From an uncultured Desulfomonile sp. (GTDB lineage Bacteria; Desulfobacterota; Desulfomonilia; Desulfomonilales; Desulfomonilaceae), in NCBI GenBank assembly GCA_903952205.1, contig CAJBEZ010000037.1, forward strand, positions 310,001-374,000: a stretch of 64,000 nucleotides of DNA. The letters are read 5' to 3'. Positions 6,622 to 20,291 of this stretch are shown here, one piece after another. The translations under genes and the position numbers were made by a program. The notes beneath the pieces were generated by a model. The model was given only the letters and a program-made list of their open reading frames with translations, had not been told where the DNA came from and did no database searches. Positions within the stretch are counted from its first letter, which is position 1. Each line of letters opens with the position of its first letter.

Positions 6622-6817
6622 TAGATTTTCTCCTGCCTCGCGAAATGAGGGAAATTCCTTATGTGAATTTTGTCGGGACTTTTGATGAATTTGTTTGGAA
6701 CAGATATTTCAGAAAAAGATTTTTCTTTTTAGCTACAGTCCCCTAAAGAAAATAGGGTTAATTCCAGGAAATGCAACTTTCATCCGAGGTTTAACAAAAA
6801 CAGGGGGGAGCGACTCA

Positions 6818-9800
6818 ATGGCCTATGAACAATTTTTCTGTAAAGAGTTCGACTGTAAAGGTCGTCTGTCCTTGATTGTTGAGAAATACTCGTCTAGAAT
6901 TCAGAAACTGCGTGATTTATGTTCATCTTCTGTCATCTTTCTTCATTATCTTGCCTCTCTCGGAGGTTTTCTCTTGCAGGATCACGAAAAAACTAAGGAA
7001 CAACTCATGGTTGAACTGGCCACTTTTCGACTTAGAGTTTCCGAGTTTGAAAAGATTACAGCGAATTTTGGAAGCCCGCCTTCTGATGGAATCAATCAAC
7101 TGAGAAAGATGGAGTCAAAGGTTGAAGAAGGTGAAAAAAGATTCCGACTACTGTTCGAAAATTCCCTTGATGCAGTGATCATAACGGATTTGACAGGCAA
7201 CATCCTGGAACATAACCAATCTTTCCTTCGGCTTCTCGGATATCCGGTCGGAGATGCTCTTGGTAAGAAGAAAATTCAGGATTTCTTCTGCAATAAAGAA
7301 ACCGGACTGAGAATAAGGCGAGAGCTTGAATCCAACGAACTTATTAGAGATTTCGAAATGGCTCTCATTTCCAAGGATGGTAGGCCAATTGACACTATCA
7401 ATGTGATAAGTGTTTTCAAAGACCCAAACGGTAACGTCATAGGATATCAGGGTATTCTTCATGATGTTAGCGACCGAAAGAAAGCAGAACAGGAACTTCA
7501 GGATGTGCTGCAATTACAGGAGCAACTTCTTAGGACGGCGGCCACTGCAATATTTCGGGTTGATAGCGAAAGAAAGATTCAAGACGTAAATGATGAATTT
7601 TGCAATATAACGGGATTTACCAGAGAAGCGATTCTGGGATGCGACTGCCTGGTTGTGTGCGATGAACCCTGCACGACTAGTTGCGGATTATTAAATCCCG
7701 ACCGTAAGGAGAGAATTTTCAGGAAAAGGAGCAATATTCGCACTAAAGACAACAGAATTCTGACCGTATTAAAAAACGCCGATCTCCTAAAGGACAAGGA
7801 CGGCACGATCAAGGGAGGCCTGGAATCTTTCGTCAATGTTACGGACCTTATTGAGGCCGTTGAATCAGAAGCCGCTGAAGTACAGAAACTAAGATCCATG
7901 ATCGAAGGCATGGAGGAAGGGATCGTGGTGGCGGACGCATCGGGGATGGTGACGGAAGTCAATAGCTGGTTTCTGAACAAAACAGGTTACAGGAGAGATC
8001 AACTTCTTGGGGAAAGTATGTGGTCATTTCATCCTGATAACGAAGTTACCGAAAGGGTAAGACAGATTTTCGCGGACTATTCCCAAGGACTGCGGAAAGA
8101 AGCCCTGGCGATAAATCGTCAATTGTTAGGTTTGTACGTTTGCCTCAGGGTTCAACCTTTTCTTGTAAATGACGTCTTTCAGGGAATCATCCTCAATGTT
8201 GTGGATATGACTGAACAGGTTGAAGCCAGGATGGCCGCTGAGGCGGCAAGTGAAGCCAAAAGTCAGTTCCTTGCCAATATGAGTCATGAAATACGGACCC
8301 CGATGAATGGTATCATAGGCATGACCGAATTGATGATTTGCACTGATCTCACCGCAGAACAAAAGGAATACCTCCAGGCGGTGAAAATTTCCGCAGACGC
8401 GCTTCTATCGCTGATCAACGATATCCTTGATTTTTCTAAAATGGAATCGGGAAAGTTTGAATTAATGACTTCCGATTTCAGCCTGAGGGACTGCGTAGGC
8501 AACACCATGAGCACACTTGCCGGTCAGGCCCACAGCAAGAACCTCGAACTGGCTTTTCATGTGCCTCCAGAGACACCGGACAACCTGACCGGAGACCCGG
8601 GAAGACTGCGCCAGATTCTGGTGAATCTAGTAGGAAATTCGATCAAGTTTACCGGAAAAGGTGAAGTAGTAGTTAACGTTGAAACCGAAAATGAGACTGA
8701 CAGGGAAATAGAGCTTCATTTCAAGGTTAGTGACACAGGTATAGGAATCCCTTCTGACAAGATTGAACGAATATTCAGAGCTTTCGAGCAGGTTGACGGA
8801 TCCACGACAAGAGAATATGGCGGCACCGGGTTAGGGCTCGCGATCGCTGCGCAACTAGTAGAAATGATGCACGGGAAGATCTGGGTGGAGAGTGAGATTT
8901 GCAGGGGGAGTGTCTTCCATTTTACCGCTCGTTTTGGTTTTTCAGCGCAACCTGTTCGGCGGGTCCTTTCTACCGAAAAATCAAACCTGAAAGGCGTAAG
9001 AGTGCTGGTTGTCGATGATAACGCCACCAATAGGAAAATTTTGCACGAAACGCTTCTGTCGTGGGGTATGAGACCCACAGCCGTAGCTGACAGCAAGTTG
9101 GCGGTAGAGGCCATCCTGCAGGCTAGTAAGGAACTAAGACCTTTCTGTCTCGCTCTACTTGATTTCATGATGCCGGACATGAACGGGTTCGAGCTTGCGG
9201 GAGAAATCAGCCGTACTCCTGACACTAACATTGAAAAGATCGTGATGCTGACATCCGGCGGACAAAGGGGGGACGCTGCCAAATGTCAGGAATTGGGGAT
9301 CTCCGCATACCTAATGAAGCCAATAAAGCAATCTGATCTTATGGACGCTATCCTCATGACAATGACCAAAGTCTCTCCTGACAGCGACCAAAGGTCTTCG
9401 CTGATAACTCGTCATTCTGTTCGTGAAGCCCGCAAACGCCTGAACATCCTTTTGGCTGAAGATAACACCGTGAACCAGAAATTAGCGGTAAGGATCCTTG
9501 AGAAAATGGGCCATTCGGTCTGCGTGGCCCCTAATGGCCGGGAGGTTCTGAATATGCTGGGGATGCAGGACTTTCAGATGGTGCTAATGGATGTTCAGAT
9601 GCCGGAAATGGATGGCCTGGACGCAACTAGGGAAATTCGTAAGAAAGAGGCTGTTTCAGGCGCTCACATGCCGATAATAGCCATGACGGCTCACGCCATG
9701 ATCGGTGATAGGGAAAGGTGCATTGCTTCGGGAATGGATGATTATATTTCAAAACCGATAACTCCAAAGGAACTCTCACAGGTAATTGAAAAAGTCCTGA

Positions 9801-10204
9801 AAACTCTGGAAGATGAATCAGTCCCTTTAGTAAGTGAGGTGGAACCCAAAAACGTTATTGACGAAGCGGAATTACTTCAGAGGACAGGGGGTGATTTTCA
9901 TCTTTTAAGTGAACTGACAAGTATGTTTATAAAGGAATATCCAGAAGCTCTCAATATAATACGTAAAGCGATATTAAATGGAGACATGAATGAATTCCGT
10001 ATCGCATGTCACTCCTTGAAAGGATCGATAGCAACCTTCGCCAGCAGTTCAGCAACTACCGCAATAGTAAGGCTCGAGACACTAAAAGACTTAAGTCAGT
10101 CCGAAGAATTAATAATAAAACTTGAAAATGAGTTAAGATCTTTGACAGACGCTTTGATGAAATTGGTATCTGTACAACCGCAAGAAGAAAGTTCTGTGGT
10201 ATGA
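6818..10204 (+). CDS. Hybrid sensor histidine kinase/response regulator (PAS x3, REC x2, HPt)
   Basis: A soluble 1128-aa phosphorelay protein. ATG 6818 is chosen because AGGGGGGAG lies 7 nt upstream; the frame extends 41 codons further to a TTG without support. In order: N-terminal helices, three PAS domains (about 90-205, 215-335, 350-460), HisKA with [16 protein letters not shown] near 485, HATPase_c with DTGIGIP and [10 protein letters not shown], a receiver starting VLVVDDN near 728 with [11 protein letters not shown], a second receiver ILLAEDN near 874 with [11 protein letters not shown] and the TAHAM/K-P residues, and a C-terminal HPt with ACHSLKGS near 1064. The second PAS holds a dense cysteine group ([17 protein letters not shown]), suggesting a redox or metal cue. 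No output domain or adjacent regulator is seen. Confidence 0.95.
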
Positions 10205-10219
10205 GTTATGAATAAGATC

Positions 10220-10954
10220 TCAAAGTGGAGTAGAAATTCCCCCGTCCTTTCGAATTTTCCAAAAATGGAGAGCCATGACAAAGATCAATATGACGGGTAG
10301 AATAAAAATATGCCAGGCGTAAAGTCTTATGAGACAAAGGTCCTCCAATTCTAAAGGCCCCAAAAAAGCCAGCGCCAATCCATCTCCTATAAGAGGAATC
10401 CGTTCCGTCAAGTGTCGGGCAATTGTCCATGCCCAGAGAGCACGGTCGTCCCACACCAAAAGGTAGCCGGTAAAATCCAGAAAGAACACCAGCGCCAAAA
10501 GAAGTATCCCTATGATCCAGTTCAGACGCCTGGGAGCAAGGTATGACCTAGTCCAAAAGACTCGAACCATGTGAAACACAACCAGGATGACCATGAATTG
10601 TCCTCCCCAGTAATGGAGATTACGGAAGACAAATCCGAACGGAGTCTGATAGGTTATTCTCTGGACAGACTGATAGGCGCTGGAAAGGGAAGGCGCATAA
10701 TAAAGCAACAGAAGGCTTCCCGTAAATATTTCCACTAAAAACATCAGTGTGGCCAAGCCCCCCAGGCAAAATGTGAAACCCACACGTGATGACGCCTCAG
10801 GAACGAAGCGAGGGTGAATGTGTTCGATGAACGCCGCCAGTGAGTCTTTGTTCATGAAAACAGATTTGCTGTCGACATCATCAGACAAGGCTGAACTGTA
10901 GGAGCATGGATCATTTTCCAGCCGATTGCGCCGCTGTGAACAGGATTTGATCAC
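10220..10954 (-). CDS. Cytochrome b6-type diheme subunit (N-terminal cytochrome b domain)
   Basis: An integral membrane protein of about 244 aa with four hydrophobic segments. The heme histidines are visible: one pair in LHYWGGQFMVILVVFH with 13 residues between, and a second in WHIFILPVILIFVMALH with 14 between, the spacing of b6-type rather than mitochondrial-type cytochrome b. It corresponds to the N-terminal (PetB-like) half only; no subunit IV/C-terminal domain is encoded nearby. A GTG at 10954 overlaps the end of the Rieske gene by 44 nt; a shorter product from ATG 10855 is possible. With the Rieske protein it could form a quinol-oxidising module. Confidence 0.88.
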   Translation of the reverse strand: MIKSCSQRRNRLENDPCSYSSALSDDVDSKSVFMNKDSLAAFIEHIHPRFVPEASSRVGFTFCLGGLATLMFLVEIFTGSLLLLYYAPSLSSAYQSVQRITYQTPFGFVFRNLHYWGGQFMVILVVFHMVRVFWTRSYLAPRRLNWIIGILLLALVFFLDFTGYLLVWDDRALWAWTIARHLTERIPLIGDGLALAFLGPLELEDLCLIRLYAWHIFILPVILIFVMALHFWKIRKDGGISTPL

Positions 10955-11366
10955 GGCTTTCTGTTAGGAACATGCGAGGCAAAGACCTGGATGCCGGCCC
11001 GCGAATTACATCGCCCCGGATGTCAAATTCGCTTCCATGGCATGGACATTCAAAAAGTCGCTTTTCCTGATTCCATTTGTACCTGCACCCGAGGTGTGTG
11101 CATCTGTCATCAAGCGCCACAGAACCGGGAATGTCCTTACCTCTGATAACCCAGGCTTCGGCCTGAGGAATAAAACTCGGTTCCCCCTCTTTGATGGCGT
11201 CAAAAGTCGCCAAAGGGAGGAGCCTGTGTTTTTTCTGTTTAGTGTTGAAAAAGGCGAACCGTGAGACTGCAAAAGATGTTATCGAAACGACCAGCCCACT
11301 CATTATGAGAATTGGTAGTTTTAGGAATAATCGTCTACCTTTAGTATCTGATAATTCATTTGCCAT
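10911..11366 (-). CDS. Rieske [2Fe-2S] protein of a cytochrome b complex
   Basis: 151 aa from ATG 11366; the frame extends 25 codons further without a good signal. The N-terminus has a Tat-like motif (GRRLFLKLP) and one hydrophobic segment, so it is probably a Tat-exported, membrane-anchored periplasmic protein, as expected for cytochrome bc/b6f Rieske subunits. The cluster-binding boxes are CTHLGC and CPCHGSEFD, followed by GDVIRGPASRSLP. It overlaps the cytochrome b gene directly downstream, so the two form one unit. A hairpin terminator separates it from the sulfur-reductase cluster upstream. Confidence 0.92.
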   Translation of the reverse strand: MANELSDTKGRRLFLKLPILIMSGLVVSITSFAVSRFAFFNTKQKKHRLLPLATFDAIKEGEPSFIPQAEAWVIRGKDIPGSVALDDRCTHLGCRYKWNQEKRLFECPCHGSEFDIRGDVIRGPASRSLPRMFLTESRDQILFTAAQSAGK

Positions 11367-11393
11367 GGTGATAAAGTAGGCGCCTGATAGGGT

Positions 11394-11434
11394 TCTTGAT
11401 GGAAAAGACGCGGCGCTTTTGAGAAAAGCGCCGC
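11394..11434 (-). terminator. Rho-independent-type terminator
   Basis: A perfect inverted repeat of 11 bp arms with a 3-nt loop occupies 11410-11434 (arm GCGGCGCTTTT, loop CTC on the minus strand). On the minus strand it is followed by GTCTTTTCC, a short T-rich run. It lies 28 nt after the stop of the small secreted protein gene and before the Rieske gene, and would end transcription of the sulfur-reductase operon. Confidence 0.7.
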
Positions 11435-11461
11435 AAATCAAATTTCTTCGCTAATCAGTCG

Positions 11462-11707
11462 TTAACAGCCTGTCGTGGGCGGTTTTGGTTTTGTAGTTGC
11501 GGTGGCCGCTTTGAGAGCCGCTTCTGCTTCAGCCTTAGTCTTGAAAGGTCCCTTAACCACGTTTTTTTCATCTGCAGGTTTTTTGTCTGTCACAGCCATC
11601 TTTCCTGCGTCCTTGACTACGAAAAATTCATCGGCGAGCGCAGATGTAGCGAACGCGAAAGCAGTAAGCGCAAGAACAACCAACATCACCCGAAACGCCT
11701 TTTTCAT
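11462..11707 (-). CDS. Small secreted protein of unknown function
   Basis: An 81-aa protein from ATG 11707 with a strong ribosome site (GAGGAGG, 8 nt away). Residues 1-25 are a signal peptide ending SALA before DEFFVVKDAG. The mature part of about 55 residues is lysine/alanine rich, with KGPFKTKAEAEAALKAA and a terminal cysteine; a short SPOR-like turn is possible. Its place between the YeeE-type transporter and the terminator suggests a periplasmic accessory of the sulfur locus, but nothing in the sequence proves a function. Confidence 0.75.
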   Translation of the reverse strand: MKKAFRVMLVVLALTAFAFATSALADEFFVVKDAGKMAVTDKKPADEKNVVKGPFKTKAEAEAALKAATATTKPKPPTTGC

Positions 11708-11770
11708 AAATCAAACCTCCTCAAGAATTATTAATACATCCTACTAACATACAATATCATGTGTCCACAA

Positions 11771-12370
11771 TCATTTGTCATAGGGCGCCCATTTTTCGGC
11801 CACCCAGGCCAGGACGAAAGCTCCTAGCGCGGCAAAGGTGATAATGAGCGCCATTGTTTCCATTGAAGTCCCAAAATACTGCCATAGGGTAATTCGTCCC
11901 ATATCTGAACTCTTATAAAACGATCCCCAAATAGGCATTCCAAAAGCGAAGATGTCTATGCCTAAGACCATGCCGATCAAAAAAACAAGACTGTCTATCT
12001 TTCCGGAAGCAACCCCTACGATGGCGGTTCCGGGGCAATACCCCCCCACCAAAAATCCAAGGCCAAAAAGCACTCCACCAACGAGTTGAGGCCAAAAATA
12101 AGTTTGGAGCAAGGAATATTCAAGTAATAAAGCGTAGTCAAACAGGCCAAACCGGTTAAGGATGACTAAGCCCAACATAGCGGTAACTAAGGCTGAGAAC
12201 ATTACCCTAAGCACTCGCATGTCACGGAAATAAAATATTGATGTCAGATTACGGGAATCTCCAAACCCCGCTCTCTCAAGTACAAATCCGAAAAGAAAAC
12301 CAATACCAATCGCAACAAAAAGACTGGTACTGAAACTTATAACCTCGTATAGGTAAAGAGGCCCGGTCAT
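11771..12370 (-). CDS. YeeE/YedE-family sulfur transporter, second half gene
   Basis: A membrane protein of 199 aa with about five hydrophobic segments. ATG 12370 overlaps the stop of the preceding gene by 4 nt (ATGA) and has AAGGA 6 nt upstream; a longer frame to 12490 lies inside that gene. Characteristic features are GFLFGFVLERAGFGDSRNL at the N-terminus and GGYCPGTAIVG near residue 110, the conserved cysteine loop of the YeeE/YedE fold, in which cysteines relay thiosulfate through the membrane in characterised YeeE. Together with the upstream gene it makes up a full two-repeat transporter. Confidence 0.88.
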   Translation of the reverse strand: MTGPLYLYEVISFSTSLFVAIGIGFLFGFVLERAGFGDSRNLTSIFYFRDMRVLRVMFSALVTAMLGLVILNRFGLFDYALLLEYSLLQTYFWPQLVGGVLFGLGFLVGGYCPGTAIVGVASGKIDSLVFLIGMVLGIDIFAFGMPIWGSFYKSSDMGRITLWQYFGTSMETMALIITFAALGAFVLAWVAEKWAPYDK

Positions 12371-12894
12371 TCCCATTCCTTTCTGACAAAATAAGCGGCG
12401 ACAAACGCAGTCGCGAAAACCGTCATCATAAAAACCCAGCTGCCGACTACCATGGTCGCTCCTCCACTCAATGCCTGTCCACTTGTGCATCCCATGGCGA
12501 AACGGGTCCCAATTCCTCCAACGATTCCGCCCAAAAATGCCAGAACCAATCTGCGGGATGCTGGAAACGACTTGCCCTTACCAACCGATAGCTTAAATCT
12601 TCTTGCGGTGAGTACCGCGACTAGTCCACCAAAAAAAGCTCCAATGACTTCAAAGACAATCCAGTCAACAAAAACTCCGCTTGACCCAGGTTTATAAAAA
12701 CTGCTGAAATACTGGTTCTGCTCCACCGCCTGGGGATCAATAGCATGGGTAATAGCTGCTGCCGTCCTGGCTACGGCTCCGGATGCTCCAAGCCCCGTTC
12801 CCATGATGAAAAACGTCAGAAGTAAAACGAGCCCAAGGGCAATTCCCGCAACAAACGGGTTCCAATAACCTTCAGCGTAATCAGGTTTGCTCAT
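12367..12894 (-). CDS. YeeE/YedE-family sulfur transporter, first half gene
   Basis: A 175-aa membrane protein with four or five hydrophobic segments. It starts WNPFVAGIALGLVLLL and carries FAMGCTSGQALSGGA near residue 135, the other conserved cysteine loop of YeeE/YedE transporters. AAGGA lies about 10 nt before ATG 12894. In single-chain YeeE both repeats are in one protein; here they are separate, translationally coupled genes. The context (polysulfide/thiosulfate-type reductase genes upstream) suggests import or export of a sulfur compound such as thiosulfate for that enzyme; the substrate is inferred. Confidence 0.88.
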   Translation of the reverse strand: MSKPDYAEGYWNPFVAGIALGLVLLLTFFIMGTGLGASGAVARTAAAITHAIDPQAVEQNQYFSSFYKPGSSGVFVDWIVFEVIGAFFGGLVAVLTARRFKLSVGKGKSFPASRRLVLAFLGGIVGGIGTRFAMGCTSGQALSGGATMVVGSWVFMMTVFATAFVAAYFVRKEWE

Positions 12895-12944
12895 TTGTTT
12901 TCATTCCTTAGTATCGAGTCATGCATTCCATAAAATATATGAAA

Positions 12945-13310
12945 TCAGTTTGAAACATTGGTTGAAGCTTTCAAAGCCGTTTCCTGTTTCAATTTGTCAG
13001 GGACCCCCAGAGCTGCGGTCACTGGTTTATCTGAAGTAGTGTCGTTCCAAAGAACAGGCGACGGGTCATTTATGGGTAATTCCGCAGGACAGACTTTCGT
13101 GAACGTTGCCGTCAATTGAAACACCCCAGCCACCGCCACAGCGATCAAAGTCATTATTATAGTAGCCATGAGAGCTGAAGTTATTATTCTGCTTCTTTTC
13201 TCGCTTGCGTCATCCCGATACTTGGATTCGCCTTCGTTCAAAGATTTTGAGTCAGACTCATTATCTTCTCGTTTAATTCCCTGCCCATTTGTTTTGGAGT
13301 TCATAGTCAT
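12945..13310 (-). CDS. Small membrane-anchored protein in the sulfur-reductase operon, unknown function
   Basis: 121 aa from ATG 13310, which has TTAGGAG 3-7 nt upstream. Residues 1-40 are hydrophilic and charged, residues about 43-68 form one membrane helix (IITSALMATIIMTLIAVAVAG), and about 50 residues follow that are probably periplasmic, with a single cysteine in KVCPAELP. I do not recognise a family. It sits 10 nt after the TorD-type chaperone gene and 50 nt before the YeeE pair, so it is probably co-expressed; it could link reductase and transporter, but that is only a guess from position. Confidence 0.7.
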   Translation of the reverse strand: MTMNSKTNGQGIKREDNESDSKSLNEGESKYRDDASEKRSRIITSALMATIIMTLIAVAVAGVFQLTATFTKVCPAELPINDPSPVLWNDTTSDKPVTAALGVPDKLKQETALKASTNVSN

Positions 13311-13320
13311 ATCTCCTAAT

Positions 13321-13893
13321 TTAATAGATGATCCTGTTCCGTAATTCAATTGCTGTTGTAACTGGACGCTGAACAGTTTCCCCCAAACCGAGCGCCTTGG
13401 TGTTTTCGAGTAGCTGCTCCAGCCAGTCCAGATGGTCCATGGCAAACAAGCGAGCCTCCTCACTTTTATCGGTTTCGAACAGAAAACCCAAGAATTCCAG
13501 TATGACTGCCAAGTGATCGGGCGAGGAGGATCTAGTGCGGTCAAAGTCCACACCATATCTTTTCAATGTATCCAACATGTGGATTGCGCTGTCTCCCCAT
13601 ACTAACCCTTTAACGCCTCGTAAAGGGTGACCTTTTTCATCTGTCCATGACTTATAAACGGATTCCTCGAGAGATACCGATGGATTGGGGCCGAAGAAGC
13701 AACCGCGCGCAATATTCCAATTTTGAGAAAACGCTTGAAACAACAAATCAATTGATTGTTCCTGTTTCCCCAGAAGATTTTTCGCAAGGTCGAACATACG
13801 TCGGGTCTCTTCCTCATCGACGTCGGTATCGTCTCCAAATAGACTCGATAACGCGTAAGCAAGATCCGACATGTCTTTTTTAGAAGAAGCCAA
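13321..13893 (-). CDS. TorD/DmsD-family molybdoenzyme chaperone
   Basis: A soluble 190-aa, all-helical protein. Family marks are SPDHLAVILEFLGFLF near residue 120 and the FAMDHLDWL helix near 148, as in TorD/NarJ chaperones that bind the Tat leader of a molybdoenzyme and help cofactor insertion. TTG 13893 is preferred because AGAGGA is close upstream; an ATG at 13872 has none. Its gene is 15 nt downstream of the NrfD-type subunit in the operon whose first gene encodes a Tat-dependent molybdoprotein, the likely client. Confidence 0.85.
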   Translation of the reverse strand: MASSKKDMSDLAYALSSLFGDDTDVDEEETRRMFDLAKNLLGKQEQSIDLLFQAFSQNWNIARGCFFGPNPSVSLEESVYKSWTDEKGHPLRGVKGLVWGDSAIHMLDTLKRYGVDFDRTRSSSPDHLAVILEFLGFLFETDKSEEARLFAMDHLDWLEQLLENTKALGLGETVQRPVTTAIELRNRIIY

Positions 13894-13908
13894 GTTTGTC
13901 CTCTACCT

Positions 13909-14793
13909 TTAAATGATTTGCGGCGGAGTCCCCGAAAAAACTATCAGGGCCCTCAAACTCATGCCACCTATTAGAACCAGTATGTCGGCCCCAACAACGA
14001 GCGCTTTGGGCATCTCTCCGTATTCCAGGTATTCAATTACGCTGAGGAAAAAAGGCACAACGATTCCCAATATTACTACAAGGCCCCAGAAATATGGACT
14101 CAGTAGTCCTGATATAAGGAGGTTTGCCGAATACGCGGCTTCAGTTGATCTGGTAAGTGACATAAAAACCAGCAGCATTAACACCAGAGCTTCCACGGAC
14201 AGAAATATCACGTGTCCGAGAGCAAAATTAGATAGTGTCTTGATGGTTGCGACGTCAATTATAGCGGCGACGATCATCGCTGCGGCCAAACCGGTAGATA
14301 TGGCTGACGCCAGAAATAGTACGGGCATCAATGGAGTGTTCCAGAACGGCACGCCATTAACTACCGCAATAAGGACTCCAGTATACGTGGCGGTGCCTAG
14401 CGCAAATAAGCTTCCTACTATCTCAAGTGGTCTGACATATTTGTTGGCGAATTTACCTATAAAACCGATTTCATTAAGGGCCGCCGCGTACAGTAAAGCA
14501 ATAGGTATGAAAATCGATAGAACTATAACTCCCCAGGCGATCATGCTGCTCAAATTGTTAGCAAGATAGATCTGGCGCCAAGGTTCCCATAAACCCGCTT
14601 CCAAGTCTAAAACAAGACATAGGGTCCCAATAGCCACCAATGGTCCGGAAACCAAAGAACCTGCTTTGGCCAAAGCTTTTGACCAGTCAGGCGCCAAAAG
14701 GTCGCAGGCCACTGCAGCGAGGAAAGCTCCGGATCCAGCTCCAGCAAGGAAAAGATAGGTAATGATCAGCCAACCCCAAGCGCTTTCTTGCAT
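13909..14793 (-). CDS. NrfD/PsrC-family quinone-interacting membrane subunit
   Basis: 294 aa with eight or nine hydrophobic segments starting WGWLIITYLFLAGAGSGAFL, the hallmark opening of NrfD/PsrC proteins. Such subunits anchor periplasmic molybdoenzymes and exchange electrons with menaquinone. AAAGGAG lies about 7 nt before ATG 14793. It is directly between the ferredoxin-type subunit and the chaperone, completing a catalytic/Fe-S/membrane set. No heme-binding histidine pattern was noted, as expected. Confidence 0.92.
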   Translation of the reverse strand: MQESAWGWLIITYLFLAGAGSGAFLAAVACDLLAPDWSKALAKAGSLVSGPLVAIGTLCLVLDLEAGLWEPWRQIYLANNLSSMIAWGVIVLSIFIPIALLYAAALNEIGFIGKFANKYVRPLEIVGSLFALGTATYTGVLIAVVNGVPFWNTPLMPVLFLASAISTGLAAAMIVAAIIDVATIKTLSNFALGHVIFLSVEALVLMLLVFMSLTRSTEAAYSANLLISGLLSPYFWGLVVILGIVVPFFLSVIEYLEYGEMPKALVVGADILVLIGGMSLRALIVFSGTPPQII

Positions 14794-14795
14794 GA

Positions 14796-15338
14796 TCAGC
14801 TCCTTTTATAAAAAATCTTGGGACTTGTGCCCAGATCAGGCCTTAACGGCAGAGCCCCGGTTTGGGCGATGAATTTCGATATTTCGCTGTTTGGATCATT
14901 CAAATCCCCGAAAATACGGACTTGAGTCGGGCATGTGGAAACACAGGCTGGTGTTCCTCCAGCCCGAACAAGCTCAATGCAAAAACGGCATTTTTCCACA
15001 ATACCCAATTGATGATCTACAACCCTCATTTTGTATGGACACGCTTCCATGCAATACTTGCAGCCTACGCAAGTATTTGGATTGACTAGCACGACCCCCT
15101 CTTTGGAGGTAAAAGTTGCGCCAGTCGGACAAACGCGCTGACAGGGAGCATTTTCACAATGGTTACATTGTAAGGGGATGTATTCCTTGTCGAAGGAGGG
15201 ATATACACCCCGTTCCCGGTTCTTGATCCAATTGAATGTCTCTTTATAATCCAGGCCATTTTGATTCTGACAGGCGACCCGGCAAGAATGACATCCTATG
15301 CATTTCGTTGTGTCAATTGCCATTCCGTAACGCGGCAT
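14796..15338 (-). CDS. Four-cluster [4Fe-4S] electron-transfer subunit of the molybdoenzyme
   Basis: 180 aa from ATG 15338 (GAGGAG 6 nt upstream). Four cysteine groups are visible: CIGCHSCRVAC near the N-terminus, CNHCENAPCQRVCP, CVGCKYCMEACPYKM, and CRFCIELVRAGGTPACVSTC, the standard arrangement of PsrB/PhsB/DmsB subunits that wire the molybdopterin subunit to the membrane anchor. No signal peptide, so it is presumably co-exported with the Tat-dependent catalytic subunit. The NrfD gene follows after 2 nt. Confidence 0.95.
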   Translation of the reverse strand: MPRYGMAIDTTKCIGCHSCRVACQNQNGLDYKETFNWIKNRERGVYPSFDKEYIPLQCNHCENAPCQRVCPTGATFTSKEGVVLVNPNTCVGCKYCMEACPYKMRVVDHQLGIVEKCRFCIELVRAGGTPACVSTCPTQVRIFGDLNDPNSEISKFIAQTGALPLRPDLGTSPKIFYKRS

Positions 15339-15449
15339 ATCAATCTCCTCGCATTTGCTCAGCACATGGTGAGGCTGCAATAGAATTGCTCATAATTTTA
15401 CCCTCCCAGGTGGGTGGGAGATGTTTACCCGACAAGCGGCTAAGGATTT

Positions 15450-17651
15450 TCATGTGACAGTCTTCTCAACACGCACAATGATTTCATTTGACATGCAGTG
15501 GCCAAGCATCGGTTCAAAATATGTGGGAAGAAAATCGTTGTAGGATATGCCGTATCCAAACGCTGTCCGAAGGTTTCTGGAGAACACTCCGTAGCCGCTT
15601 GGCAGAAATACGCAGTCTTTGTGGATACCCTCCGTGACCATAGCTCTTGCCCGGCCTTTGCCGACAGCGTTGCTTATGGTCATGCATTCGCCATCCTTTA
15701 TGCCGAGGGCTATTGCTCTGGCAGGATGAATCCAGACTTTTGTCATATCATTTAGCTGGCTGATTTCTTTAAGATACTTTTGGTTGATGCTACGAGTGTG
15801 GGTTAAATGGGCCTGTTTACCGTGAACTAGACGAAACGAATGAGGATCTTTGGGATCGGGATGGACCAGGACTTCCTCCCAATCGGGCATGGCGGGCATG
15901 TTGTTGTCCTTTAAAATAGAAGAAACAAACTCAAGTTTCCCGCTTGCGGTGCTGAAATGAGGCTCTCCCGGTTCCCATTTGCCCCCAAGATCTATGACCC
16001 CTTCCTTTTTTAGACGGTCAAGAGTCACTCCAAGAGGAGCAAGGGCAGCCTGATTATATTCTTCCAATGTCCAGTTGAAATATTCGCCAATACCCAAATG
16101 CTGGGAAAGTTCATTCAAAATTACCACCATAGGTTTGGTGTCATACAGCGGTTTGACTACAGCTTGCCTGATGGATACCTGCTTGGATTGATAACTCAGA
16201 TGCGTGTGAACCACATCGTCGCGTTCAAGATAATAAGACTCAGGCAAAATGTAGTGAGACAGAGTGGCTGTTTCCGAAAGCACATAGTCAAAACTCACCA
16301 ATAGATCGAGTTTTCTATAACCTTCAATAACTCTAGCCGGATTAGGGCATGTTCGGAGTGGGTTATTATGGTAGACGAAACCAGCTTTGAGTTTTCCCTG
16401 TATCGCCAGCTCAGGAATAGCGTGTGTCAGCCCCAGTCCCACTGGAGTAAGCGGGTATCTTTCAGGGTCGCCGCTACCATCAACCATTGGTCCTTCTGGA
16501 ACAGTAGGGGCAGGATGCTTTTGTGGATCGAGTTTTCCAAGTTGGACCTTTGGCGCAAAGAACATCCCACCCCTCTGATTAAAGGTTCCCAGGAGACCGT
16601 TCACACAGCCGATGGTCCTGACAAGCTGAAAGCTGTTTTTGTATTGAGTTCCCATCGCTCCATGATAACCGCGATGCACAAAAGCCCTCGGAGCCGCCTC
16701 TGCAAGATCATGAGCCAGCTTTCGGATGACATCTTTCTGCACGTCCGTCCTTTGTTCCGCCCATTCGGGGGTGTACTCCTTTACTTTCTCAGCCCACTCA
16801 TCGAATCCTTCAGTATACTTTTCAACGAAGTCTTTTTGATAAAGGTTCTCTGTAATAATGACATTGGCTAAGGCCAGCATCAACGCCAGGTCAGCGCCAG
16901 GTCTGATTCGTATCCATTGGTGAGCGAACGCTGCTATCTCACTAAAACGAGGATCAACAACTACGAATTTTGCTCCACGATCCTTGGCCTTCGACATGTC
17001 GCTCAATTGCCTAAGCTGAAGCCCTGCGCCGAGGTTTCTTCCGATAAAAAGACCAAACCTGGTGTGCTCAATATCCTGCTCAGGCTTTGCATTGCCTGTC
17101 GTTATCCACCATCCGATGTTTCGAGGCAGGAAACAAGTACTAGCGTGGGAGAAGGAATTTTGAGAACCCAGGGCGTTTATGAAACGATTGGTCAAGCCTG
17201 CATTCCCCTCCGGATATTGAACAAGAAAGAATGATTCAGGCCCATATTTCTCTCTTATTGTTTGAAGTCTTTCGCCGATTTCTTTGTATGCCTGTTCCCA
17301 TGATATCGGTTCAAACTTGTTAGGCCCCACGCGCTTCAATGGTGATTTTACACGATCCTTGTTGTAGACTTCGTGTAGAAGGGCGTGCCCCTTGGCGCAA
17401 ACCCTTCCGTGGTTAATCCCTGCAATAGGAATTCCTTCGGCTTTCCAAATACGCCCACCTTTAGTGTAGACATTTATGGCGCACCAGTTACCGCAACCGT
17501 CGCATAGAGTTGGAGTAACCTTGACATCTTCCACAGGTTTTTCACTAGCGGCCCACGCCTCAAAATTCATGTAGCTGGACGCTACAACTGAAGCTCCACC
17601 AACTGCCGACCCTATGAGGAATTTTCTTCGGCTCATACCGGGTTTTTTCAT
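15450..17651 (-). CDS. Molybdopterin oxidoreductase, catalytic subunit (polysulfide/thiosulfate-reductase-like)
   Basis: 733 aa. Residues 1-35 are a Tat signal (SRRKFLIG). A [4Fe-4S] motif CDGCGNWC with a later CAKGH follows (residues about 50-90), then the DMSO-reductase-family molybdopterin domains (FVVVDPRFSEIAAFAHQWI, PGADLALMLALANVI) and the C-terminal molydopterin-binding barrel (HPARAIALGIKDGE). A cysteine in ASTCFLPRN near residue 173 is at the usual place of the Mo ligand in PhsA/PsrA-type enzymes. Exported to the periplasm, it probably reduces or oxidises a sulfur compound. Polysulfide, thiosulfate or tetrathionate cannot be told apart by eye; nearby YeeE-type genes favour a sulfur substrate over, for example, arsenate. 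Confidence 0.88.
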   Translation of the reverse strand: MKKPGMSRRKFLIGSAVGGASVVASSYMNFEAWAASEKPVEDVKVTPTLCDGCGNWCAINVYTKGGRIWKAEGIPIAGINHGRVCAKGHALLHEVYNKDRVKSPLKRVGPNKFEPISWEQAYKEIGERLQTIREKYGPESFFLVQYPEGNAGLTNRFINALGSQNSFSHASTCFLPRNIGWWITTGNAKPEQDIEHTRFGLFIGRNLGAGLQLRQLSDMSKAKDRGAKFVVVDPRFSEIAAFAHQWIRIRPGADLALMLALANVIITENLYQKDFVEKYTEGFDEWAEKVKEYTPEWAEQRTDVQKDVIRKLAHDLAEAAPRAFVHRGYHGAMGTQYKNSFQLVRTIGCVNGLLGTFNQRGGMFFAPKVQLGKLDPQKHPAPTVPEGPMVDGSGDPERYPLTPVGLGLTHAIPELAIQGKLKAGFVYHNNPLRTCPNPARVIEGYRKLDLLVSFDYVLSETATLSHYILPESYYLERDDVVHTHLSYQSKQVSIRQAVVKPLYDTKPMVVILNELSQHLGIGEYFNWTLEEYNQAALAPLGVTLDRLKKEGVIDLGGKWEPGEPHFSTASGKLEFVSSILKDNNMPAMPDWEEVLVHPDPKDPHSFRLVHGKQAHLTHTRSINQKYLKEISQLNDMTKVWIHPARAIALGIKDGECMTISNAVGKGRARAMVTEGIHKDCVFLPSGYGVFSRNLRTAFGYGISYNDFLPTYFEPMLGHCMSNEIIVRVEKTVT

Positions 17652-17685: not shown

Positions 17686-17714
17686 GTTATATATAAATAT
17701 CAATATATCGTCAA
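17686..17714 (-). promoter_or_regulatory. Sigma70-type promoter of the sulfur-reductase operon
   Basis: On the minus strand TTGACG (17714-17709) and TATAAC (17691-17686) are separated by exactly 17 nt of AT-rich DNA. Transcription would begin near 17679, about 28 nt before the ATG at 17651. Each box differs from consensus by one base, making this the best promoter I see in the window. Confidence 0.65.
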
Positions 17715-17757: not shown

Positions 17758-18759
17758 TTAGGCTCTAAAATGATCCCAGCCTTTGGGGAAAATATCAAAG
17801 ACCATTCCAGATTTTTTTATCAGTTTCATCTCTGAGCCGGAGACAAATCTACCTATTTCAATCAGGTCAGCCCCTGCTTCAGTCACTGCAAGTTTTACCT
17901 TAGCAAATTCTTCCGATCTGATGGCGGCCAGGAGCACGTAATCCTCTCCTCCATTAAGAATCCATTCCATAGGATCCGCAGATAGTTCGAGAGCCGCCTG
18001 AGTTAAGGCCTCCGACAATGGAAGCATTTCTTCAAAGATTGTGGCTCCCAATCCTGATTGTTTGCAAACATGGCCCAAATCTGAACTTAAACCGTCGGAA
18101 ATGTCTATAGCCGCGTTGCAAGCTTGGGACCTTGCGAGAATTCTTCCAACTCCGACATGAGGTTTTGGTTTGAGATGCGCGTCAAGGAGAGGGGCGTAGA
18201 TCTGATCGGAAGAATTACTTGAGTTCCGAAGCAATTCTAAGCCGGCGGCCGAGTAGCCCAGATGACCGGACACCGCTATAATATCACCATCGTGGGCGCC
18301 ATTTCGAAAAAGGGTTTCGTTATTCTTAGTAAAACCAGTGACCAGAATATTTATGACCATGTCGGTGAGTGATCTGGTTGTATCACCACCGAGTATGTCC
18401 ACCTCGAATTCCGCTGCAAGTTCCGAAATGCCTCGGTAAAGATCTTCCAGCCAGATAACGTCAAAACAATCAGGTATAGCGATGCTTACAAAAGCTTGTT
18501 TTGGCGTTCCTCCACAAGCGGCTATGTCCGACAAGTTTACCGCCAGAGCCTTTGCCCCAATGCTGTGAGCGGTTTGTAGGTTCACGAGAAAATGAACCCT
18601 TTCTACCATCATGTCGGTGGTGATTAGCAAATTCTCATCAGGAGAGATTTTTATTATCGCACAGTCATCACCTATTCCACGGATGACGTCGTTGCCGTGT
18701 GTCTTGCACAATGACGATATGCGATCTATGAAACCGAATTCGCCAAGATCTTTTAACAT
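17758..18759 (-). CDS. thiL: Thiamine-monophosphate kinase
   Basis: Phosphorylates thiamine phosphate to thiamine diphosphate with ATP, the last step of cofactor synthesis. 333 aa from ATG 18759 (TTG three codons upstream possible). Family marks: GIGDDCAIIKI near residue 30, TTDMMVERVHFL, AKALAVNLSDIAACGG, and DISDGLSSDLGHVC and NGGEDYVLLAA further on. Third gene of a thiM-thiE-thiL series on one strand. The ThDP product would serve transketolase, among others. Confidence 0.95.
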   Translation of the reverse strand: MLKDLGEFGFIDRISSLCKTHGNDVIRGIGDDCAIIKISPDENLLITTDMMVERVHFLVNLQTAHSIGAKALAVNLSDIAACGGTPKQAFVSIAIPDCFDVIWLEDLYRGISELAAEFEVDILGGDTTRSLTDMVINILVTGFTKNNETLFRNGAHDGDIIAVSGHLGYSAAGLELLRNSSNSSDQIYAPLLDAHLKPKPHVGVGRILARSQACNAAIDISDGLSSDLGHVCKQSGLGATIFEEMLPLSEALTQAALELSADPMEWILNGGEDYVLLAAIRSEEFAKVKLAVTEAGADLIEIGRFVSGSEMKLIKKSGMVFDIFPKGWDHFRA

Positions 18760-18834
18760 TATTTTCAACGTAAATTGTTTGTTTCAGGCGCCCTAAATAT
18801 CATCACTCAAGGATCCACGCGTCAGGATTTGAAT

Positions 18835-19488
18835 TCAATGATTTGCGCGGTTTCGTTTTGCGCTTCGCACCATCTGTATGAGATCTTCAGTTGCTGAAAA
18901 TGGATCCGATTCCGAAACTATGGCGCTCACCACCGCTATGCAGTCAAGTCCGGCCATAACCACTTCATGTGCGTTATTTCGACCAATGCCACCAATGCCT
19001 ACAAGGGGAAGGGATGAGGACAGTCTGGCCTTGCGCACCCCATCTAGTCCCCACGGCAGGGTGATGTCTTCTTTGGTCGAGGTAAAGAACACCGGACTTA
19101 TAGCGAAATAATCCGCCAAAGATGCGGAGGTGGAGTCAATTTGGCTCAAATCATTCACAGATAATCCAATGATCTTGTCGGGTCCCAGAATCTTGCGAGC
19201 ATTTTCTAATGGCGTGTCGGACTGTCCAAGGTGAACGCCTTCAGCGTCCAGCGCCATCGCTACATCTATCCTGTCATTGATAATAAGAGGAACGCCATAG
19301 TCAGCCAAAAGTTTCTTGATTCTTGAACCTTCCTTTAAAAAGTCTCCGGCGCTGAGATATTTTTCCCTCAATTGCACGACTGAAACGCCTGCCCTAACAG
19401 ATTCACGAATGATTTCCTCATTGGATCCGCCTCGCGAAAGAGATCTGTCAGTTACAAGGTACACATCCCAGGATGAGACGTCTTTCAT
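18835..19488 (-). CDS. thiE: Thiamine-phosphate synthase
   Basis: Joins hydroxymethylpyrimidine diphosphate and thiazole phosphate to thiamine phosphate. 217-aa TIM barrel with VVQLREK, LIINDRIDVAMALDAEGVHL, and the phosphate-loop region LVGIGGIGRNNA. The ATG overlaps the thiM stop by 4 nt (ATGA), so translation is coupled. No obvious anomaly; size is normal for the family. Confidence 0.96.
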   Translation of the reverse strand: MKDVSSWDVYLVTDRSLSRGGSNEEIIRESVRAGVSVVQLREKYLSAGDFLKEGSRIKKLLADYGVPLIINDRIDVAMALDAEGVHLGQSDTPLENARKILGPDKIIGLSVNDLSQIDSTSASLADYFAISPVFFTSTKEDITLPWGLDGVRKARLSSSLPLVGIGGIGRNNAHEVVMAGLDCIAVVSAIVSESDPFSATEDLIQMVRSAKRNRANH

Positions 19489-20291
19489 GCCGGCTCAATT
19501 CTAGCGGAACTCTGAAATTCCTCGGGGGTAATGTTATGAAGCCGGTCAAGCACGTTGACCCAGAATGAACCGGGACCTTGCGACTTGGAAGAGGCTTGCT
19601 CCGCCACGACCTTGAACAACGCCAGGGCGCTAACTGTAGCCAGAAGGGCGTCTTTTTCGACTGCCAGAAAGGCTGCCACCATGACACTCGCCGAGCAGCC
19701 GGTTCCCGTCACACTCGTCATCATAGGGGAGCCACCGGAAATAAAGAGAGACAGCGTCCCGTTGGTTACGAAATCATTCTTCCCTGTTACCGCCAAGACA
19801 TTACCACGCTCTCCAGCAAGGCTTTTTGCCGCTTCGATGGCTTCCTCTGTAGTGTTTACCGAGTCTACTCCACGGGTTCTTCCGCCTGCTGCCGTAAGCG
19901 AGAGAATTTCGGAAGCGTTTCCTCTTATGGCGGTTGGCGCGGAAAATCTAGCTATCTCGCAAGCTGTGTCTGTTCTTAACTTCGTGGCTCCTGAACCTAC
20001 CGGATCCAAAACTAGAGGTTTACCTGCGATTCTAGCCAGACGAGCCGCATATGTCATTGATTCTACCCAGGTTTTTGAAAGTGTCCCGATGTTTATGACC
20101 AAAGCGCTGGAGATACCTGATATATCATCCATTTCCTCAATCGCGTGAGCCATTATCGGGGCTGCTCCCAGAGCCAGCAGAACATTTGCGGTAGTATTCA
20201 TGACTACGAAATTGGTGATGTTATGAATTACAGGGCGAGATTCCCGGATACGCCCCAAAATATCTCCGGCTGCTTTGGCGAATTCATTCAT
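19485..20291 (-). CDS. thiM: Hydroxyethylthiazole kinase
   Basis: Salvage kinase phosphorylating the thiazole alcohol, giving the thiazole phosphate for ThiE. 268 aa with VIHNITNFVVMNTTANVLLA at the N-terminus, VLDPVGSGATKLRT, and the ribokinase-type catalytic stretch TSVTGTGCSASVMVAAF near residue 195. AGGAGG lies about 9 nt before ATG 20291. First gene of the thi set. I looked for a TPP riboswitch upstream (20292-20363) and saw none. Confidence 0.95.
   Translation of the reverse strand: MNEFAKAAGDILGRIRESRPVIHNITNFVVMNTTANVLLALGAAPIMAHAIEEMDDISGISSALVINIGTLSKTWVESMTYAARLARIAGKPLVLDPVGSGATKLRTDTACEIARFSAPTAIRGNASEILSLTAAGGRTRGVDSVNTTEEAIEAAKSLAGERGNVLAVTGKNDFVTNGTLSLFISGGSPMMTSVTGTGCSASVMVAAFLAVEKDALLATVSALALFKVVAEQASSKSQGPGSFWVNVLDRLHNITPEEFQSSARIEPA

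Follow-up and report, generated by a model that had tools for sequence, protein, structure and literature searches.

In anaerobes with a sulfur-respiring or sulfur-disproportionating metabolism, how does sulfane sulfur pass the cytoplasmic membrane? The matter is unsettled, and a locus from an uncultured Desulfomonile sp. makes it testable, as the gene for a candidate single-cysteine carrier lies there beside those for a transporter and an enzyme. The locus occupies part of a window of 64,000 nucleotides (the whole stretch of DNA that was analysed, positions 310,001-374,000 of contig CAJBEZ010000037.1) and comprises ten genes, lettered A to J below, all on the minus strand and running from 17651 to 10220 in the window numbering that is used here for all operon coordinates. 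Our main new result, which a preliminary description of this DNA had missed, is that a terminal cysteine is linked to one clade of YeeE transporters: F and G, the halves of such a transporter, belong to this clade, and the small secreted protein H encoded beside them ends in a cysteine. The genes were recognised from open reading frames and family scans; the gaps between them are of at most 111 bases, with overlaps at F/G and I/J. Their layout is as follows.

15450..17651, minus strand: A, molybdopterin catalytic subunit of Psr/Phs type, 733 amino acids (PF00384, PF01568, PF04879)
14796..15338, minus strand: B, Fe-S subunit (Fer4_11), with 16 cysteines kept in 17/17 rows of the alignment
13909..14793, minus strand: C, NrfD membrane subunit (PF03916, 155.6 bits)
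13321..13893, minus strand: D, TorD-type chaperone (PF02613)
12945..13310, minus strand: E, small membrane-anchored protein, with Cys74 in 16/16 rows
12367..12894, minus strand: F (Yee1), one half of a split YeeE/YedE (PF04143, 72 bits, profile positions 174-309)
11771..12376, minus strand: G (Yee2), the other half of the split YeeE/YedE (PF04143, 62 bits, profile positions 4-158)
11462..11707, minus strand: H, secreted protein of 81 amino acids, with terminal GC in 13/13 family rows
11409..11435, minus strand: terminator-like hairpin in the H/I gap (12 pairs, 7 of them G-C, then T-rich)
10911..11366, minus strand: I, membrane-anchored Rieske protein (PF00355), with CTHLGC and CPCHG motifs
10220..10954, minus strand: J, b6-type cytochrome, N-terminal half only (PF00033), ExtP-like

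The preliminary description had named the families Molybdopterin, Molydop_binding and Fe4S4, Fer4_11, NrfD, PF02613, Sulf_transp (PF04143), Rieske and Cytochrome_B, and all are found in the window. It had treated the YeeE/YedE transporter as a single gene; the family was correct, but there are two genes, F and G, each specifying one half. TorD, which it had counted as part of the set, is present in the window but is not a constant member, as the gap between C and E is too short for it in 9/16 loci of the family (the eight rows for D are only those loci in which it was detected). 'Family' without a label means Desulfomonilaceae here; L, G and C numbers denote loci, genomes and contigs, and f1 to f108 are the family labels in the genome set.

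In H a hydrophobic segment at the N-terminus leads into a small beta-alpha domain and then into a Pro/Lys-rich tail; the protein's only cysteine is its last residue (codon 11467-11465). Predicted export and a C-terminal arm with a cysteine are the marks of a SoxYZ-type carrier arm, and H has both; neither Pfam nor NCBIfam gave a match of H to the SoxY or SoxZ families. The wider family to which H belongs is one of small secreted proteins with the pattern FYVVKD..GPFKTKAEAE, in up to seven copies per genome (in G010 and other family genomes, L064-L079), and presumably resembles half of a SPOR domain. H could thus be viewed as one of a set of generic paralogous secreted proteins, and this is partly true, as there are paralogs within the same genomes, but the cysteine end is found only in the operon copies: it is absent from all 15 distinct paralogs outside the operon (16 loci, L068 and L073 specifying one protein; the paralog at L070 runs off its contig).

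How general is the association? We searched 395 genomes of the phylum with a profile built from G. Outside the family, 21 genomes scored at least 124 bits and the remainder at most 95, and in 21/21 an open reading frame ending in GC or GCG abuts the YeeE pair or is fused to it (these genomes include the loci where the tail pattern was first noticed). Among 38 generic split-YeeE controls, a sample drawn in roughly rank order from the weaker matches to G, such a reading frame lay within 3.2 kilobases on the same strand in six and was adjacent in one, the single adjacent example being of 74 residues and possibly spurious. When the search was extended to 55 genomes of another class, seven new loci emerged, three of them at about 121 bits, and the tail was present in 6/6 of those that could be tested (the contig of L180 ends before the expected tail site); a third search, of eight genomes, gave no new match. 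In a tree of Yee2 proteins (10/13 family rows plus all 27 other tailed rows, giving 37 tailed rows versus 38 controls) the tailed group formed one clade with support of 100/100. Among the open-access papers that came up in literature searches, none described a cysteine-tailed partner of a split YeeE in its title or in the opening of its abstract.

The proteins that carry the tail are of several kinds. Besides H, they include a secreted rhodanese in f40 and f15; a secreted protein with a metallo-beta-lactamase (MBL) fold and three rhodanese domains (scanned in L131, L132 and L135, with similar long reading frames in f71 and f97 and shorter ones in two f91 genomes); a membrane stalk in f108; an extension of G itself, behind an extra hydrophobic segment, in f50; and a fusion of G to a rhodanese in L136. 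The rhodanese carrier of L126 has no cysteine other than that of the tail, and the L137 carrier has none inside its rhodanese domain; with these domains devoid of cysteine, the tail is therefore the available thiol. L136 (2925-6628), where the split YeeE-rhodanese ends in GGCG, also has two multiheme cytochromes c beside it, one with a cytochrome b561 domain.

The genes in f40 (L126, L127) and f15 (L137) are in the order A-B-C-F-G-tailed rhodanese (a further f40 locus, L176, was checked for the tail only). Their A proteins form a lineage distinct from the A of the window in the tree, where L137 is represented by a fragment on a long branch, and Psr genes thus stand beside a tailed YeeE in three families and in two lineages of A. 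This recurrence of enzyme plus split YeeE, in two other families and with a different Psr lineage, bears out the earlier suggestion that the transporter belongs with the enzyme.

Against the Sulf_transp profile, F aligns with the second half and G with the first. In phmmer alignments Cys136 of F (codon 12489-12487) falls opposite Cys293 of TsuA and Cys114 of G (codon 12037-12035) opposite Cys91 (TsuA positions were counted by hand from the printed alignments), and each is the sole conserved cysteine of its protein, in 16/16 rows for F and 14/14 for G. The third cysteine of TsuA is absent, as it is from PmpAB. F and G make up a pair of the PmpAB type, each half aligning with a half of TsuA and retaining one conserved cysteine. 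According to published work, Cys91 and Cys293 of TsuA are indispensable, TsuA-type YeeE proteins move thiosulfate, and PmpB and PmpA correspond to the two halves of YeeE (PMC11582611), while the split pair YedE1E2 imports zero-valent sulfur without accelerating export, with one essential cysteine per half (PMC10812762). One genome of the family encodes a further split YeeE pair (G014:C155:23814-24844).

What might deliver sulfur to such a pair? A has a twin-arginine start and a Fe4S4 cysteine motif; its best PDB match is PsrA of Thermus (2vpw, 356 bits), and its best NCBIfam model is PhsA, at 460 bits, below the cut-off of 694, with the ArrA and YnfE/F models far under the PhsA score. Cys173 of A, present in 16/16 rows, aligns with a cysteine of PsrA at the position that we take to be the molybdenum ligand in the PsrA family. 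A molybdoenzyme, a four-cluster Fe-S subunit and an NrfD anchor stand together as in Phs/Psr operons, and A, B and C score best against Psr/Phs-type families, so the sulfur-type molybdoenzyme locus of the preliminary description stands, even though A does not reach the curated PhsA cut-off. In the tree A forms a clade of its own together with a sister group. Sequence does not fix the substrate of A, and a paper on cable bacteria likewise states that the substrates of Phs/Psr enzymes are not settled by sequence (PMC13047784). The same genome has another PhsA-like protein, on C29 (553 bits for the matched part).

With tblastn we followed the gene order through 16 loci of the family besides the window. 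A is present at 69-86% identity in 17/18 family genomes, its own included; the one without it, G007, is 82% complete, and G008 has a fragment at a contig edge. The order A-B is kept in 16/16 loci, C and E in 15/16 and F in 16/16; where the contig is long enough, G is in place in 15/15, H in 12/12, and I and J in 11/11. The search for this order in other genomes, which had been proposed as a check, thus shows it to be conserved well beyond the genome of origin, across the Desulfomonile family. Desulfomonile tiedjei DSM 6799 is among the carriers (G010, identified from its second contig, the first 6000 bases of which are 100% identical to plasmid NC_018026.1), and D. tiedjei DCB-1 has been tabulated as a thiosulfate disproportionator (PMC12998232). 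A scan of viral contigs found no relative.

The genomes themselves thus show which genes are present, in what order and with what conservation, and that a terminal cysteine goes strictly with the transporter clade; the interpretation towards which we lean, with somewhat better than even confidence, is a relay that takes periplasmic sulfane sulfur into the cytoplasm, with A-B-C as the enzyme, H as the carrier and F+G as the importer. Under this proposal, quinone-linked A-B-C in the periplasm would have a sulfane-sulfur compound as its substrate, thiosulfate or polysulfide being the likeliest; the C-terminal cysteine of H would take up sulfane sulfur as a persulfide; the flexible tail of H would pass it to heterodimeric F+G; and the channel cysteines, Cys114 of G and Cys136 of F, would hand it on into the cytoplasm for possible use by the Dsr pathway (dsrA is present in 18/18 family genomes). 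E, in which a single hydrophobic segment is followed by invariant C74-P and N-D-P motifs, may tether or dock parts through its membrane-proximal cysteine. The loading of H, the direction of import and the substrate, and likewise the roles of E, I and J, are what we infer here. It is an evenly balanced question whether, more broadly, there is an unrecognised class of extracytoplasmic sulfur carriers that would be defined by a cysteine tail and not by a fold, would serve one heterodimeric YeeE clade on interchangeable scaffolds, would face a selenocysteine channel in some lineages, and would be coupled to Psr in Desulfomonile and two other families.

Several points weigh against the proposed relay. 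H has no recognised domain in Pfam or NCBIfam, and its predicted structure is a weak model (predicted local distance difference test score, pLDDT, of 63) with a low-confidence tail; its terminal cysteine could instead serve for metal binding or for a disulfide bond. Members of the tailed clade are relatives of one another, and the counts given above therefore do not stand for independent events. L034, with an A 86% identical to that of the window, is without C and E, and its G is broken (12829-14339), by deletion or through misassembly. Moreover, the nearest enzymes outside the family, at about 50% identity (L043, L045, L048, L049, L050 and L056; the contig of a further such relative, L044, ends after the start of B), are encoded with B, a TorD and a more distant NrfD, and in none of these six sister loci does a YeeE transporter, H or a Rieske protein adjoin. 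As the sister enzymes do without YeeE, we reject the idea that the enzyme depends on the transporter. Just upstream of A in L043, L045, L049 and L050 there is a secreted protein of one type, which in L049, the only one of the four scanned, is a rhodanese (L048 is not listed in this count, and L056 starts near a contig end).

Could the locus be simply a thiosulfate or polysulfide reductase operon of the ordinary kind, in which YeeE exports sulfite or moves thiosulfate and the cysteine of H has a redox or structural function? We regard this as unlikely, though it is the best placed of the alternatives: the Psr/Phs-type scores of A, B and C, the movement of thiosulfate by TsuA-type YeeE (PMC11582611) and the lack of a known carrier domain in H would all suit it. 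It gives no account, however, of a terminal cysteine that tracks a transporter clade over unrelated scaffolds and is absent from the paralogs of H, and export sits poorly with the importing behaviour of the one split pair studied (PMC10812762).

It is more doubtful still that the enzyme runs oxidatively, with electrons from sulfane sulfur or sulfite entering menaquinone and being passed by the Rieske protein and cytochrome b to a high-potential acceptor. I and J do accompany the operon in all 11 family loci in which the contig reaches them, and in cable bacteria a partial complex III made up of Rieske protein and cytochrome b has been put forward as the site of quinol oxidation (PMC13047784). 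I has its four cluster cysteines in 12/12 rows and is closest in PDB to the Rieske protein of b6f, while J matches b6 at 139 bits and ExtP (NF040969) at 244 bits, below the cut-off of 290, and has a cysteine aligned with that of the CLGG motif of cytochrome b6 in 9/9 rows (those with letters at this position). J is the N-terminal half only, though, and PF00032, the second half of cytochrome b, is absent from the genome of origin and from all seven genomes of the genus (it is present in 7/18 family genomes), which rules out a complete bc1/b6f complex; nor was any of the ten genes recognised as encoding a c-type cytochrome that could serve as acceptor. In the window, furthermore, the hairpin at 11435-11409 parts H from I, so that a single transcript of all ten genes is not assured. 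Among the 11 other H/I gaps of the family comparable hairpins occur only in L035 and L051; those of L038 and L055 are weak (that of L055 was matched by 5/40 shuffles), and none was found in seven. With an NrfD quinone anchor of its own, the reductase does not need the Rieske/b pair, and, given the hairpin and the missing b half, I and J cannot confidently be counted in the sulfur relay. The earlier view that this pair connects to the quinone pool has gained no support; what the preliminary description said of a sulfur enzyme, of gene order and of the transporter link has.

A role for selenium deserves attention in view of the wider clade. An in-frame TGA stands exactly at the codon for the channel cysteine of G in L126 (1505-2110), L127 (7552-8157), L176 (1656-2261) and L137 (3005-3640), in the context GGY-U-PGT in f40 and GL-U-PGT in L137 (f15), and selenocysteine is likely, from the reading frames, in the Yee2 half of these other families. 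L137 has a hairpin with a GGUC loop after the TGA; the folds are weak compared with shuffled sequences (z -0.37 and -1.52). In f108 (L184-L186) one TGA, probably likewise for selenocysteine, was counted inside Yee2, the frame of L186 ending at GGY, and a motif search for a selenocysteine context in these three loci gave nothing. A review of selenoproteins gives GUxSG as the YeeE/YedE motif (PMC13188914); this would match the F half, whereas the TGA here sits in the G half. The same review ties most selenocysteine-containing transporters to metal resistance, selenium YedE models give F and G higher scores than TsuA does (none of them reaching its cut-off), and ExtP, which J resembles, comes from the selenite/tellurite cluster of Geobacter. 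Even so, that the cargo of F+G and the tail is selenium or a thiophilic metal, with A a selenate, selenite or arsenate reductase, is the least probable of the alternatives, as G reaches only 39.8 bits against the selenium model TIGR04112 (cut-off 200), A falls far below its PhsA score with ArrA and YnfE/F, and the relatives of the pair are accompanied by rhodanese and MBL-rhodanese proteins; we reject selenium transport by F+G because a separate full-length selenium-type YedE (L003, G000:C99), with a TusA-like gene beside it, passes that model at 464.5 bits.

The operon is preceded by a conserved promoter.

17686..17714, minus strand: promoter, with TTGACG at 17714-17709, a 17-nucleotide spacer containing the near-palindrome ATATATTGATATTTATATAT, and TATAAC at 17691-17686

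The promoter that the preliminary description had placed before the first gene is supported by conservation and not by a generic sigma-70 scan, which performed at chance level in this region (11 sites versus 9.7 +/- 3.1): 12 aligned upstream regions, with 18 invariant columns, have in common TTGA and an AT-rich inverted repeat, the repeat lying at the position of the sigma-70 spacer and -10 box (the alignment was made without L055, which has a differing upstream region, and without L041, L042, L047 and L052). ArsR-type repressors typically have operators of this kind. Upstream of the operon lie thiM-thiE-thiL (17758-20291, minus strand), as in 10/16 family loci, L046 having thiL alone of the thiamine genes at this place; at the other end, a large PAS hybrid sensor kinase (6695-10204, plus strand) is convergent with J, and a similar kinase, at about 70%, has the same position in L038 and L039.

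If the relay is as we propose, the module and its Psr-type enzyme would together bring sulfane sulfur from periplasm to cytoplasm for sulfur respiration or disproportionation, and the cysteine-tail rule would be a sequence signature by which such systems could be found. How does it compare with systems already known? An ExtP-type b cytochrome is shared with the Geobacter ext cluster (NCBIfam ExtP; PMC5877670), from which the locus differs in that J is below the ExtP cut-off and there are no ext cytochromes or porin. Two kinds of disproportionation cluster also have parts in common with it, YTD having a YeeE-type protein and MOLY a molybdoenzyme with TorD, but YTD, as described, has yedE beside tusA and dsrE, neither of which is in our locus, and molyABC is without the membrane anchor that NrfD provides here (PMC12998232), so membership of either is ruled out on gene content. 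The Psr operon of Desulfurivibrio includes a secreted sulfur transferase (a rhodanese), and the organism has YeeE/YedE proteins; to judge from locus numbers their genes are outside that operon, and the available portion of the paper makes no mention of a cysteine tail (PMC12142623). With PhsABC and PsrABC there is agreement in the catalytic, Fe-S and NrfD subunits, PsrA (2vpw) being the best structural relative, whereas A is below the PhsA cut-off, in its own clade with a sister group, and has an importer and a carrier in its operon. Like PmpAB and YedE1E2, F and G are two halves with one cysteine each, matching Cys91 and Cys293 of TsuA, but they are longer (175 and 201 amino acids as against about 130; PMC10812762, PMC11582611). 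Unlike the generic split pairs that were sampled, they fall in a separate clade, which has a cysteine-tailed partner in all testable loci examined. SoxY ends in a GGCGG arm. SoxT in the Sox system is one protein of 330-350 amino acids, whereas here the transporter is split, the small carrier is unrelated and the enzyme is of Psr type; nevertheless, the presentation of sulfane sulfur by a periplasmic cysteine to a YeeE-type transporter, which has been called conceivable for SoxYZ and SoxT1 of Hyphomicrobium (PMC11582611), is closely similar to what we envisage for H and F+G.

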